Source: Verrucomicrobiota bacterium (GTDB lineage Bacteria; Verrucomicrobiota; Verrucomicrobiia; Opitutales; Opitutaceae). Taken from it: a DNA stretch of 35,911 bases. Positions 9,114-12,944 of the stretch are shown piece after piece. The stretch is taken from contig JACRKC010000092.1 of assembly GCA_016235555.1 (NCBI GenBank), forward strand, positions 1 to 35,911, given 5' to 3'. Each line of letters opens with the position of its first letter. Within the stretch, counting starts at the first letter, position 1. The notes below the pieces were generated by a model, which worked only from the letters and a program-made list of their open reading frames with translations, was not told the origin of the DNA and made no database searches. Both the position numbers and the translations under genes were made by a program.

Positions 9114-9974
9114 ATGACCGAAAAAATTTCCAGTCTCCAGAATCCCCGCGTAAAACAGCTCGTGAAACTGCGCGACCGGCGGCCGCGCGATGAGGCGGGC
9201 GTGTTTCTGGTCGAGGGTTACCGCGAGATCCGGCGGGCGTTGGAAAAAAACGTGCCGATAGCGGAGCTCTATTTCGCTCCGGAGTGGTTTCTGGGCGAAA
9301 ACGAGCCGGCGCTCATCGCCCAGGCGCAGGCGGCGGGGGCGAAAGCGTTCGAGTTGACGAAGGAGGCGTTCGCGAAAGTCGCCTATCGCGAGCGGCCGGA
9401 TGGGCTGCTCGCGGTGGCGCCGCAGTGGAAGCGGGCGCTGGCGGATCTCGATGCGATTGCAGGGCGGGGTTTCTCCCCGACACTGGCGACGGAGGGCGTC
9501 GGGCATAAAGCCCGACCTACCGCACCATTTCTTCTGGTCGTCGAGGCCATCGAGAAGCCGGGGAATCTCGGCACCATCCTGCGCAGTGCAGATGCGGCGG
9601 GGTGCCACGCCGTGATCGTGTGCGATCCGGTGACGGACATTTTCAACCCCAACGTCGTGCGCGCTTCGACCGGCGTGCTATTTTCCGTGCCGCTCGTGGT
9701 CGAGGACAGCACGCGCGTGCTCGCGTGGCTGCGCGAGCGGGGCGTGCGCACCGTCGCGACCACGCCGGCGGCGGAAAAGATCTACTCCGATACCGATCTG
9801 CGCGGCCCGCTGGCGATCGTGATGGGGAGCGAGCAATATGGGCTCAGCGAGTTCTGGCTGAAAAACTGCGACCTGCCCGTGCGCATCCCGATGGCCGGTC
9901 AGGCCGATTCGCTCAACGTCGCGATGGCGACGATCATCACGCTGTTCGAGGCGGTGCGGCAGCGGGGAAAGTAG
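9114..9974 (+). CDS. SpoU/TrmH-family RNA 2'-O-ribose methyltransferase with in-frame REPIN
   Basis: This 286-residue SPOUT-fold enzyme transfers a methyl group from SAM to a ribose 2'-OH in rRNA or tRNA. An N-terminal substrate-binding domain (MTEKISSLQNPRVKQLVKLR; EAGVFLVEGYREIRRAL) precedes the knotted catalytic domain. Its motif 1 is EKPGNLGTILRSADAAG, motif 2 is IVMGSEQYGLS and motif 3 is PMAGQADSLNVAMA. The target nucleotide is not predictable. The start is the ATG at 9114; upstream in-frame codons come from the TTTCGTG repeat. Residues about 117-136, between the two domains, are encoded by a REPIN (9462-9520). The TAG stop at 9972-9974 is the GTAG foot of another REPIN. It is divergent from the RlmD-like gene with a 93-bp gap. 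Confidence 0.92.
   Translation: MTEKISSLQNPRVKQLVKLRDRRPRDEAGVFLVEGYREIRRALEKNVPIAELYFAPEWFLGENEPALIAQAQAAGAKAFELTKEAFAKVAYRERPDGLLAVAPQWKRALADLDAIAGRGFSPTLATEGVGHKARPTAPFLLVVEAIEKPGNLGTILRSADAAGCHAVIVCDPVTDIFNPNVVRASTGVLFSVPLVVEDSTRVLAWLRERGVRTVATTPAAEKIYSDTDLRGPLAIVMGSEQYGLSEFWLKNCDLPVRIPMAGQADSLNVAMATIITLFEAVRQRGK
9462..9520. repeat. REPIN inserted in frame inside the TrmH-family gene
   Basis: The left hairpin is GCGGGG-TTTCT-CCCCG (9462-9480). The right hairpin is GTCGGGC-ATAAA-GCCCGAC, ending in a CTAC foot (9498-9520). Read in reverse, the intergenic element at 26515-26579 has the same two hairpins in the same order (GTCGGGC/GCCCGAC and CGGGG/CCCCG around AT-rich loops), so this is a copy of a mobile palindrome family. 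The reading frame is preserved. Confidence 0.88.
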
Positions 9975-10041
9975 GGCGGGTCTGTGACCCGCACTCGAAT
10001 CCTGCAAGGCGCCAAATGAGCGGGTCACAGACCCGCCCTAC
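9971..10041. repeat. REPIN shared by the 3' ends of two convergent genes
   Basis: GTAGGGCGGGTCTGTGACCC begins at 9971, and its near-exact inverse ends in CTAC at 10038-10041. The stems are GCGGGTC-TGT-GACCCGC and GCGGGTC-ACA-GACCCGC. The left foot provides the TAG stop of the plus-strand methyltransferase. On the minus strand the right arm encodes the last five residues (SRAGL) and the TGA stop of the oleD gene. Its position also fits a bidirectional transcription terminator, although there is no T-tract. Confidence 0.92.
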
Positions 10042-11116
10042 TTTTCAGATGCGCCACCAACTCGGCGGTGCCGGCGGCCATCGAAACTTGCGGCGCGTAG
10101 CCGAGGTCGCGGCGGGCGGCGGCGAGGTCGAACCAGTGATCCTTGGCGAGTTCGGCGGCGATGAAGCGGGTCATCGGAGGTTCGCCGCGGAGCGGGAGCG
10201 CACGCCAGAGTGTTTCGCACACGGCGCCGATCGCGGAGGCGGCGCCGAGGGAGATTTTCTTCGTGACGGGCGGCTCGCCGAGGGCGCGGAGGAGTTCGTT
10301 GATCCAGTCCCAGAGGATAACCGGCTCGCCGTTGGTGATGAAATAGGCCCGCCCCGCGGCGCGTGGCCCGGCAGGTTTGTCATCCATTAGATGACAAACG
10401 TTTTTTTCTAATTCAGAGGTAAAAGCGAGGCGTTTGTCATCTAATGGATGACAAACTGTGAGGGCGCGCTCGGCGAGGAGGTGGGCGGTGACGGCGTTGG
10501 CGATGTGGACCAGATCGACGCGGTTTTTCCCACTACCGACGATGCGGAGGCGGCCGGCGCGGGCGCGGGTGAGCACGCGGGGCACGAGGTGGGGATCACC
10601 GACGCCCCAGATGAGGTGGGGGCGGAGCGCGACGGTGCGGAGGGTGGCGGAGCTGGCGGCGAGGACTTCGCGTTCGGCGATGGCCTTGGTGAGCGGATAG
10701 GGGCTCGGGCAACTCGTGGTGAGCGGGAGCGATTCGTCGGCGCCGGCGAGGTCGCGGCCGTTGTAGACCACGCTGGGGGTGCTGGTGTAGACGAGGCGCG
10801 CGACTCCGTGGGCGCGGCAGCCAGCGAGGAGGGCGCGGGTGCCGAGGACGTTGGGGCGGAAAAAATCGTCGTAGCGGCCCCAGACGCCGACTCTGGCGGC
10901 GGTGTGGAAAACGGTTTCGACACCGGCGCACGCCGCGGCCACGGCGGGCGCATCGTCGAGGGAGGCGCGGATGAAGCGGACGCCGCGTTGCTCCAAGTCA
11001 GGGGCGGGCGTGCGGCCGAGCACGGTCACGCGACGGCCTTCGGCGAGGAGGCGCTCGACGAGGTGGCGGCCGAGAAAGCCGGTGCCGCCGGTGACGAGGA
11101 CAGAGGAGGAAACCAC
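10025..11116 (-). CDS. oleD: OleD-like NAD(P)-dependent 3-beta-hydroxysteroid dehydrogenase family reductase
   Basis: This extended SDR has about 363 residues: Rossmann motif VLVTGGTGFLGRHLVERLL, catalytic region VYTSTPSVVYNG, and Tyr-x-x-x-Lys in PYPLTKAIAEREVL. It also carries the ITNGEPVILWDWINELL segment characteristic of the 3-beta-HSD/OleD group. In characterised ole pathways OleD reduces the 2-alkyl-3-ketoacid made by OleA, giving the beta-hydroxy acid that OleC cyclises. OleC is encoded immediately upstream on the same strand, which strengthens the call. The start is uncertain: in-frame GTGs at 11134, 11125 and 11116 all come from a TTTCGTG repeat, and I list the most downstream one. 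A REPIN (10375-10456) encodes an in-frame insert of about 28 residues before AGRAYFITNGEP. The C-terminus is also repeat-derived. Confidence 0.85.
   Translation of the reverse strand: MVSSSVLVTGGTGFLGRHLVERLLAEGRRVTVLGRTPAPDLEQRGVRFIRASLDDAPAVAAACAGVETVFHTAARVGVWGRYDDFFRPNVLGTRALLAGCRAHGVARLVYTSTPSVVYNGRDLAGADESLPLTTSCPSPYPLTKAIAEREVLAASSATLRTVALRPHLIWGVGDPHLVPRVLTRARAGRLRIVGSGKNRVDLVHIANAVTAHLLAERALTVCHPLDDKRLAFTSELEKNVCHLMDDKPAGPRAAGRAYFITNGEPVILWDWINELLRALGEPPVTKKISLGAASAIGAVCETLWRALPLRGEPPMTRFIAAELAKDHWFDLAAARRDLGYAPQVSMAAGTAELVAHLKSRAGL
10375..10456. repeat. AT-rich palindrome pair inserted in frame in oleD
   Basis: GTTTGTCATCCATTAGATGA (10375-10394) begins a hairpin with arms GTTTGTCAT/ATGACAAAC. 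The exact inverse hairpin ends at 10456. The 82-bp element is conspicuously A+T-rich inside a very GC-rich gene. The encoded peptide contains the repeated motif VCH-L-DDK at both ends. It interrupts the region just before the conserved GRAYF strand without closing the frame. Confidence 0.92.
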
Positions 11117-11186
11117 GAAACACACGAAACACACGAAATGGAGAAAGTGTGAATTCCTTTCGTGTATTTGGTGTGTTTCGTGGTGC
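11112..11186. repeat. TTTCGTG-type long palindrome between oleC and oleD
   Basis: Arms of CACGAAA units (11113-11138) and TTTCGTG units (11158-11182) form an imperfect inverted repeat of about 75 bp filling the oleC-oleD gap. It has the same organisation as 9016-9098. The candidate GTG start codons of oleD lie inside the left arm, so the repeat sets the gene's 5' end. Confidence 0.85.
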
Positions 11187-12868
11187 TAACGCTTGGGGTC
11201 GGACTCGAAGCCGGTGGCGGTGGCGGCCCACTTCGCGAGGGTGAGGCGGTGGATCTTGGCGTTGTGGCGGACATCCACCGGGAAGTGCGGGTGGAAATAG
11301 AATGTCTTGATCGGCAAGGTGAGCTCATGTTGCGCGGCGAGTTCGCGGAACTCGCGGGCGAGGGCACGGCAGGCGCGGGAGTCGGGAAGGTTGACTTCGA
11401 CGACGAGCGCGGGGCGTTGCTGTCCGCGCGGGCCGAGGCCGATCAGGGCGCAGCGGAGGCCGAGTTGGTGCGAGCGGAAAATGTGTTCGCACGGCTCGGT
11501 GTGGAGCGTGCCGGAGGCGGTTGCGACGCGCTCGGCTTTGCGGCCGCAGAACCAGAGCCGGCCGTCGGCGTCGAGGTAGCCGCAGTCGCCCAAGCGGTGC
11601 CAGATTGGGGTCCCGGGTTTCGGGTCTGGGATCTGGGAAATTTTTGCGACGGCGGTGGCGTCAGGGAGGGCGTCGTAGAGTTTGGTGACGACGGGGCCGC
11701 GGACGATGATCTCGCCGATTTCGCCACGGGGGAGTTCGCGGGCGTCGGTGATCGTGGCGAGGGGGGCGTCGGTGATGGCGATGATTTTGATTTCAATTTC
11801 GCGCACCGGACGGCCGACGCAGGCGCCGGGGAAATTTTCGATTTTCGATTTTTGATTTTCGATTTCGGCGGCGCTGATCGTGGCCAGCGGGAGCGCCTCG
11901 GTGGCGCCGTAGGGGCTGTGGAGCTGGCCGCGCGGCAGAAACTGCTGCGAGCTGCGCCACAGGGCGGCGGGCACGGGGGCGCCGGCACAGAGCACGCGGC
12001 GGAGCGTGGGGAGTTGGATCCGGTGCGCGAGGCAGTGGTCGCCGATTTTTTTCCAGAGCGTGGGCGAGCCGAAGGAGTTGGTGACGCGTTCCTGCTGGAT
12101 GGCCTGGACGATCTTCGCGGGGTCGACGGCGGCGGGGCGGCGCGGGTCGATCTCGGGCACGATGGTGGTCATGCCGAGCGCGGGGTTGAAGAGCGCGAAG
12201 ATCGGGAGCATCGGCAGGTCGATTTCGCCGGGCTGGATGCCGTAGGTGTCGCGGATGAGGCGGACCTGGGCGTCGAACATGCCGTGTTCGTAGCAGACGC
12301 CTTTGGGTGCGCCGGTGGAGCCGGAGGTGAACAGCACCGCCGCGAGATCCGCGGCGTCGCTGTTCACGGGTTGCGAGTTGAGAGCTGAGGGTTGAGAGGC
12401 GGAATCGGTGAGACGGGCGGTGAGGGAATTCGGGGCGGGGACGCGGACGGTGACGGTGGCGAAGGTTTTCCGGAAGACACGGCTGACGAGGCGGGCGAGC
12501 GGGATGCCGACGAGCGCGCGGGGGCGCGAGCGGACGACGCAGGCGAGGAAGCTTTTCAGCCCCATCCCGGGATCGATCACGACGGGGACGGCGCCGTGGC
12601 GGAAGAGCGCGAAGGCGCTCGCGATGAGGGGCAGGCCCTGACGCACCATCACGAGCGTGCGGTCGCCGCGTTGGACGCCGGCGGCGGCGAGGCGCGCGTG
12701 CCAGGCGGAGACTTCGGCGTCGAGTTCGGCAAACGTGAGCGTGAGATAATCGATGTCGCCGGCCCGGGTGCGGCCGCGGGGGATTTTCAGGGCGGGCGCG
12801 GCGGGCTGGGCCGCAGCCATGAGGCCGAGGTGGCGGGCGATGTTGGCGTTGGGCGGCGGCGTGGACAC
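11186..12868 (-). CDS. oleC: OleC-like AMP-dependent beta-lactone synthetase (ANL superfamily)
   Basis: This is a 560-residue adenylating enzyme. Visible ANL motifs are the P-loop VLFTSGSTGAPKGVCYEH, YGATEALPLAT (A5), LGDCGYLDADGRLWFCGRKAE (A7/A8) and a C-terminal DVRHNAKIHRLTLAKWA carrying the probable catalytic Lys. The N-terminal GAVPVVIDPGMGLKSFLACV and the VRHNAKI tail are typical of OleC rather than acyl-CoA ligases. In known systems OleC converts a beta-hydroxy acid to a beta-lactone, which OleB decarboxylates to a long-chain olefin. The GTG at 12868 is preferred because NANIARHLG follows and because a terminator occupies 12913-12944, next to the alternative TTG at 12913. oleA and oleB are not in this window. 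Confidence 0.88.
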   Translation of the reverse strand: MSTPPPNANIARHLGLMAAAQPAAPALKIPRGRTRAGDIDYLTLTFAELDAEVSAWHARLAAAGVQRGDRTLVMVRQGLPLIASAFALFRHGAVPVVIDPGMGLKSFLACVVRSRPRALVGIPLARLVSRVFRKTFATVTVRVPAPNSLTARLTDSASQPSALNSQPVNSDAADLAAVLFTSGSTGAPKGVCYEHGMFDAQVRLIRDTYGIQPGEIDLPMLPIFALFNPALGMTTIVPEIDPRRPAAVDPAKIVQAIQQERVTNSFGSPTLWKKIGDHCLAHRIQLPTLRRVLCAGAPVPAALWRSSQQFLPRGQLHSPYGATEALPLATISAAEIENQKSKIENFPGACVGRPVREIEIKIIAITDAPLATITDARELPRGEIGEIIVRGPVVTKLYDALPDATAVAKISQIPDPKPGTPIWHRLGDCGYLDADGRLWFCGRKAERVATASGTLHTEPCEHIFRSHQLGLRCALIGLGPRGQQRPALVVEVNLPDSRACRALAREFRELAAQHELTLPIKTFYFHPHFPVDVRHNAKIHRLTLAKWAATATGFESDPKR

Positions 12869-12912
12869 GTTGGGCGCGAGGTCCGAGGCTCGCGCAACGG
12901 CGCAGCGGGGCA

Positions 12913-12944
12913 AAGAAAAACCCCGCGGCGTGGGCGGCGGGGTT
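12913..12944 (-). terminator. Rho-independent terminator downstream of the lipoprotein operon
   Basis: On the minus strand AACCCCGC, a 10-nt loop, then GCGGGGTT form a perfect 8-bp GC-rich stem followed by TTTTTCTT. It lies after the lipoprotein stop (13007) and before oleC (start 12868). It should therefore separate the HDAC-RNase D-lipoprotein transcript from oleCD. Confidence 0.8.

Follow-up and report, generated by a model that had tools for sequence, protein, structure and literature searches.

The AT-rich palindrome lying inside the oleD gene of this Opitutaceae genome is, with a probability that we put at about 0.7, one copy of a dispersed, non-autonomous REPIN-like element of the Opitutaceae that has been vertically inherited and whose stems have been rewritten. 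Its architecture is that of two inverted 25-bp hairpins, approximately 57 bp apart, arranged around a short core, and it belongs to a multicopy family with copies residing in frame in the loops and linkers of recognisable proteins; units of this design occupy the OleD loop in many genera, where the stems vary among species and yet remain complementary. The window, that is the whole stretch of DNA analysed, comprises 35,911 nucleotides, and the coordinates are collected in Table 1.

Table 1. Coordinates of the oleD element, its parts, its host gene and the neighbouring gene in the window.
Feature	Coordinates	Strand	Basis or make-up
Host ORF, OleD-like NAD-dependent reductase, 369 aa	10025..11134	-	NCBIfam OleD; Pfam 3Beta_HSD and Epimerase
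Variable OleD loop holding the element, residues 226-260	10355..10459	-	Orthologue loops and structure model
Paired REPIN-like palindromic element	10375..10456	.	Arm, 32-nt spacer, arm; 82 bp
25-bp arm 1, a 10-5-10 hairpin with centre CATTA	10375..10399	.	Inverted-repeat and family pattern search
25-bp arm 2, inverted copy with centre TAATG	10432..10456	.	Inverted-repeat and family pattern search
Spacer core TACCTCTGA (consensus TACCTCTGG), common to other paired copies	10413..10421	-	8/9 match to consensus
Neighbouring AMP-binding gene, OleC-like	11186..12913	-	AMP-binding domain

The sequence-only reading had described exact, AT-rich inverted arms of 25 bp within a GC-rich gene, and this description holds: the arms measure 25-26 bp, the 26-nt version (10375-10400 and 10431-10456) being 100% complementary at a separation of 30 nt, and the GC content is 0.36 at 10380-10459 against approximately 0.65-0.75 in most of the surrounding intervals. 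The duplicated VCH-L-DDK peptide noted in the same reading is likewise present in the translation of the ORF through the element (VCHPLDDK...VCHLMDDK), and this extra, repeat-derived segment stands in frame before the GRAYF strand, with the OleD motifs resuming afterwards. What had been missed is that each arm is in itself a near-perfect palindrome, able to form the hairpin GTTTGTCATC-CATTA-GATGACAAAC, and that the arms recur across the genome. The predicted fold energy of the element is far beyond chance (z -10.95 as DNA and -11.50 as RNA, equalled by none of 200 shuffles), and within the whole window a perfect TGTnA unit is found at the oleD element only.

The best NCBIfam model for the host ORF is OleD (E 5.6e-117), yet the match stays under the curated cut-off (390.8 of 580 bits). 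In the predicted OleD structure, residues 228-256, between a helix (211-226) and a strand (262-266), have pLDDT values below 50 and are probably disordered, the model being a shallow one (25 rows only) in which other stretches are also of low confidence. A structure search with this model listed 50 matches of the epimerase/dehydratase and short-chain dehydrogenase kinds, which are uninformative on the insert. An AMP-binding gene is expected beside oleD, and the one located there, which is oleC-like, would fit an ole cluster. A further inverted repeat (cacgaaacacacgaaa ... tttcgtgtatttggtgtgtttcgtgg, 11116-11183 of the window) lies at the 5' end of the oleD ORF; it too is AT-rich (GC 0.43 at 11100-11179) and supplies the first residues of the ORF (VCFVCFVV), so that the true start of oleD is probably further in. 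Just past the 3' end lies an inverted pair of GTAGGGCGGGTCTGTGACCCGC (9971-9992 on the + strand and 10020-10041 on the - strand), with GTAG outside, which looks like a classical GTAG-tagged REP dimer; its 18-mer is absent from the 321 loci examined, save for four containing the same stretch. An Rfam search of 9900-11300 gave nothing above the gathering score, the sub-threshold matches being nearly all to microRNA models.

A genome search for the arm, which the sequence-only reading had recommended, disclosed a multicopy family: the arm pattern matched 68 times at up to three mismatches in 8.03 Mb (140 contigs), with no match for the reversed-pattern control, and a pattern also admitting TGTCACC stems matched 75 times in the same genome, again with a control of 0. 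The copies occur as solo arms or as pairs, and the 22 distinct pairs examined all display the same inverted order of centres and a start-to-start spacing of 55-57 bp. Accordingly, two features by which REPs and REPINs are recognised, a multicopy palindrome of 20-40 bp and inverted doublets at regular spacing, are present in this family. The spacers of the pairs are variable except for a core near TACCTCTGG at an offset of 8-11 nt. Agreement reaches 7 or more of the 9 core positions in 15 of the 22 pairs, against a mean of 1.25 and a maximum of 5 after shuffling; this comparison is flattered by the derivation of the core from the very copies that it scored, and the constant offset is the safer observation.

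Read from its arms, the unit of this genome carries stops in two of the three frames on both strands, and the copies inside recognised genes occupy the stop-free frame. Ten copy-bearing ORFs were scanned and eight have recognised domains (five TPR-repeat proteins, an exosortase, a response regulator and ArgS), the other two giving no match. The copy in the exosortase falls between its two domains, that in the response regulator between the receiver and the DNA-binding domain, and that in ArgS between the catalytic and anticodon domains. In the TPR-repeat proteins (L002, L005, L006, L041 and L055) the unit stands at apparently one homologous place, after ...LTLY.FAR, as a pair in four of them and as a single arm in L055. 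Overall, for comparison with REPs and REPINs, which are mainly extragenic, 9 of the 36 loci examined in this genome lie in genes with recognised domains, and the remainder are either outside any ORF of at least 130 aa or in ORFs without assignment. The ArgS loop measures 153 nt here versus 54-57 nt in 26 of 29 relatives (the best-scoring 29 of 238 other genomes with a match), and the other three, with loops of 87, 186 and 87 nt, hold no such unit; the absence of the pair from all 29 relatives examined indicates that units do move. Compared with these relatives, the extra segment in ArgS is approximately 93-96 nt long, with no clear target-site duplication of the kind that would mark a MITE, the ends of the element being approximate.

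Relatives of OleD are present in 237 of 252 genomes of the family, and the loop, defined between the helix ending in AEQAL and the strand GRAYF, was compared in 90 oleD loci (30 initially returned and 60 picked further down the list of matching genomes). At least one unit, with 6 or more of 7 pairs, is present in 44 of the 90 loops, amounting to 56 units that all lie in one frame, and in 34 of these 44 loops the first unit begins at an offset of 6 nt, exactly at the same codon. No clear unit was found in the other 46 loops; sequences resembling decayed relics are seen by eye in L108, L112, L118 and L120. Units were also seen in 26 of 80 loops from GTDB genomes titled Opitutaceae, Opitutae, Opitutus or Ereboglobus, a set that overlaps the 90-locus sample and is not independent of it. 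The stems are of several types, TGTCATC, TGTCACC, TGTCACG, TGTCACT, TGTAACC and TGTCAAC among others, mostly accompanied by their complements. The two orthologues with the best scores come from another genus. Their loops, of 105 nt as here, contain a pair in the corresponding position, the stems being CACC in one and CACG in the other (6/7 paired in the first unit in both cases) versus CATC in this genome; the 105-nt pair is thus common to three species with three stems, and its spacer core is similar by eye. The loops of L113, L115, L119, L127, L129-L135, L137 and L168 encode peptides that resemble, by eye, other repeat families (LSTLNSQ-like, NVERSMLNVERS-like and KFQVPSSKFQ-like), as if the OleD loop were a general landing place for repeats.

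These comparisons bear on the age of the insertion. From the perfect arms, the sequence-only reading had concluded that the insertion was recent, and it had proposed an alignment of OleD orthologues in which the same insertion in related genera would speak against this view. That is what the alignment displays: hairpins of the same design, with different stems, occupy almost half of the loops, including those of another genus. A recent foreign insertion private to this genome, with which the perfect arms and low GC would agree, is consequently extremely improbable, and a unique or recent event was rejected on the basis of the 68 genomic arms and of the same site and architecture in other genera. 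In fact, perfect arms are no sign of youth, since their complementarity persists as spacers and species drift apart. We consider it likely that the oleD hairpin is an old guest with a repeatedly renewed stem, rather than a fresh insertion.

Of the 77 loops measuring 36 nt or more, 36 served to assess the covariation of the stem, selected solely for having TGT or TGC (Cys) at +6. Among 396 cells 84.6% are paired, and 73 cells are changed on both sides versus 32.2 after shuffling. The covariation score is 0.410 versus 0.155 in shuffles, which ignore relatedness and none of which, in 500, reaches it, the best slid control, a kind that keeps relatedness, being 0.136. Counted by pairs, two-sided change is unremarkable (7 versus 6.7 shuffled), and perfect 7-bp stems occur in 25 of the 36 loops versus a mean of 5.3 after random re-pairing of arms (maximum 14 in 10,000). 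Such very strong covariation, together with the stable predicted fold, could be expected if the hairpin itself were selected, by way of mRNA stability, translation pausing or a DNA-binding site, and pairing were preserved for that purpose. Nevertheless, we regard this as quite improbable, given that a clear unit is missing from 46 of the 90 orthologues, that there are sequences with the look of relics, and that the same hairpin is found in unrelated genes and outside long ORFs. Conservation at the protein level, in the form of a functional metal-binding peptide Cys-His-x-x-Asp-Asp, deserves hardly any credit: CH..DD does recur in several orthologues, but the residues change in couples (CN..GY, CQ..VD, CH..RD, CH..SD) that track the base pairing of the DNA, the loop is predicted at very low confidence, and the same 46 orthologues do without a clear unit.

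Units of this kind also occur in other genomes of the family. The exact pattern TTGTCATCNNNNNGATGACAA is found in 27 of 252 family genomes (control 0), and the generic unit TGTMAYN-centre-NRTKACA occurs at 12-124 sites per genome in all eight selected relatives, with a control of 0-1. In G063, a single-contig genome, runs of regularly spaced units, with steps of 90 and 124 bp, are seen at C1:2648302-2648680 and 3433491-3433757. Stem types were tallied by hand for five relatives (G198, G063, G128, G205 and G096), with G145, G162 and G003 outside the tally. The type present in oleD accounts for 15 of 18 sites in G198 (TGTAACC, oleD copy included), for 30 of the 50 listed sites in G063 (70 in all) and for 12 of the 25 listed sites in G128 (53 in all). 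For G205 the counts of TGTCACG, the stem of its oleD, are 13 of 33 sites with the oleD copy and 12 without it, TGTCACC being found at 13; in G096 the oleD type, TGTCACC, stands at 4 of the 24 listed sites (74 in all) and TGTCACT at 15. Hence the stem seen most often is that of oleD in three of the five relatives, in the other two the oleD stem ranks second once the oleD copy is excluded, and in the present genome CATC is the commonest stem under the search patterns used. A CATC stem in oleD accompanies other CATC sites (7/8 versus 14/82, oleD copies subtracted; p 1e-4 in a Fisher test, which ignores relatedness), with G143 and G161 as counter-cases, which have 15 and 12 CATC-type sites yet other stems in oleD.

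The turnover of the stem at the oleD site may be viewed either as renewal of a resident copy or as repeated arrival of new ones. On a quick OleD tree that excludes the loop, and in which 42 of 87 inner branches are under 80, the 35 perfect rows require no fewer than 20 changes of stem type, and the presence of a perfect unit, with decayed or 6-of-7 units scored as absent, flips at least 27 times. These flips, along with the many loops devoid of a clear unit, also fit repeated gain and loss, and recurrent independent insertion, in which the OleD loop would be a permissive hot spot for whichever palindromic family is currently spreading in each genome, draws on this patchy presence, on the peptides resembling other repeats in the same loop of other species, and on the tendency of oleD stems to accompany genome-wide types. 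We judge it rather unlikely, because the first unit is so often at an identical codon, because the 105-nt pair is held by three species with three stems around a similar core, and because of the loops of identical length. Fourteen loops are exactly 51 nt long; in 11 of them, from 11 species, a unit with 6 or all of its 7 pairs stands at +6, and these units comprise four perfect and two near-perfect stem types, the remaining three loops having 5, 3 and 3 of 7 pairs. The same place and the same length with a different paired stem point to a stem that has been rewritten in place, rather than re-inserted, at the oleD loop.

Under vertical inheritance with rewriting of the stems, the history of such an element could be as follows. 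Copies would spread in hairpin form, probably while single-stranded at replication forks, by means of a putative enzyme, and insertions into genes would survive only in the stop-free frame and only in loops; in OleD, the element would be tolerated by virtue of falling in a loop and having one open reading frame. A settled copy would then be inherited vertically, and its two half-stems might be rewritten together. Template switching across the hairpin is one way in which this could happen and conversion by copies located elsewhere in the genome another, a co-evolving hairpin enzyme being a further candidate for the renewal of stems. Joint rewriting of this kind would leave arms that are perfect and species-specific without selection on the enzyme. 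As for the mobiliser, this genome has ten Y1 transposase genes, whose loci (up to approximately 1.5 kb on each side, less at contig ends) contain no unit, and for the Y1 transposase matches in seven relatives one unit was found in the 30 loci examined of 49; a distant Y1 gene acting in trans may serve. A bolder proposal, which we put forward only tentatively and hold to be doubtful, is that the Opitutaceae possess a trans-acting hairpin-processing system, specific in each genome for one or two stem types, which converts old copies to those types where they stand, even within essential genes; stems would then evolve in concert, and the in-gene hairpin would have been renewed at least 20 times within the family without leaving its codon.

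The nearest known kinds of element are REPINs, intragenic GTAG REPs and the Rickettsia palindromic elements (RPEs). Opitutus terrae, in which intragenic REPs occur, belongs to the Opitutaceae. A REPIN is described as a REP doublet forming a hairpin (PMC3116915), and the available part of that description is matched by the oleD family in its inverted palindromic repeats, fixed spacing, diverse spacer, compensatory changes and genome-wide dispersal, as well as in solo copies that are likely remnants. Likewise, REP singlets have been reported as decaying remnants of REPINs, with RAYTs being vertically inherited (PMC8049555, in the portion available). Unlike REPINs, the Opitutaceae element was found without an adjoining Y1 transposase gene and without a GTAG-type tag, resides in frame, and occupies an orthologous in-gene site across genera with its stems turning over. 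In fact, GTAG was seen at 1 of 114 flank ends of 12 nt each (2.7 in shuffled flanks) and CGTC at 2 of 114 (3.5 shuffled), the oleD arm is paired right to its ends, leaving no unpaired tag, and the RAYT (Y1 transposase) loci examined contain no unit in this genome and a single one in the relatives. Since tag and transposase neighbour, the marks of classical REPs and REPINs, were looked for in this way and not found, our view is that the element works as a REPIN does, but we refrain from classing it among them.

Intragenic GTAG REPs, both singles and dimers, have been described in genes such as those for UvrA, DNA ligase and RNA helicases of O. terrae, the species with the highest number of them in that study, and dimers or groups are said there to add 20-30 residues to the protein (PMC3733652, available sections). 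The oleD family resembles them in belonging to the same bacterial family and in comprising in-gene singles and dimers, and is set apart, as far as the description goes, by the unpaired GTAG-type end that the O. terrae REPs carry and the oleD family does not (PMC3733652). The available sections of that study also report alternative complementary stems within REP families, and roughly the same REP position in the recB genes of two Xanthomonas species (PMC3733652). RPEs, as far as the parts of the accounts at hand describe them, are palindromes lying in frame in unrelated protein genes and adding a tolerated peptide (PMC10969869, PMC3733652), and the oleD family is likewise inserted in frame in unrelated genes, namely those for OleD and for the eight domain-bearing hosts listed above. 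Compared by description, RPEs as first reported are approximately 150 bp long and from Rickettsia, whereas the oleD family is a 25-bp unit or an 82-bp pair from Verrucomicrobiota, and stem covariation at one orthologous site, as seen for oleD, receives no mention in the available portions of the RPE accounts (PMC10969869, PMC3733652). Template switching, in the part of the work available, offers simultaneous changes on both sides of a stem and perfect stems from one mutation event; it is described for RNA genes, and alone it would not make stems alike genome-wide (PMC8794818).

In-gene REPs of O. terrae, alternative complementary stems and a REP site in the same gene of two species are therefore already in print (PMC3733652, in the sections available). 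The literature searched contained no account of the untagged family, of the OleD site, or of a cross-genus in-gene site with stems renewed in place. The novelty here lies in such a site, old and common to several genera, at which the hairpin seems to undergo renewal where it stands. A selected structure is the usual conclusion from covariation. In oleD, a hairpin with textbook covariation lies in a coding loop and is missing from about half of the orthologues examined, so that covariation may also arise from the copying of mobile hairpins, and the oleD site, with over 40 homologous hairpins, provides a natural series in which template switching or conversion can be weighed against selection. 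For the Opitutaceae, oleD illustrates how repeat DNA lengthens the peptides of enzymes through its one open frame.
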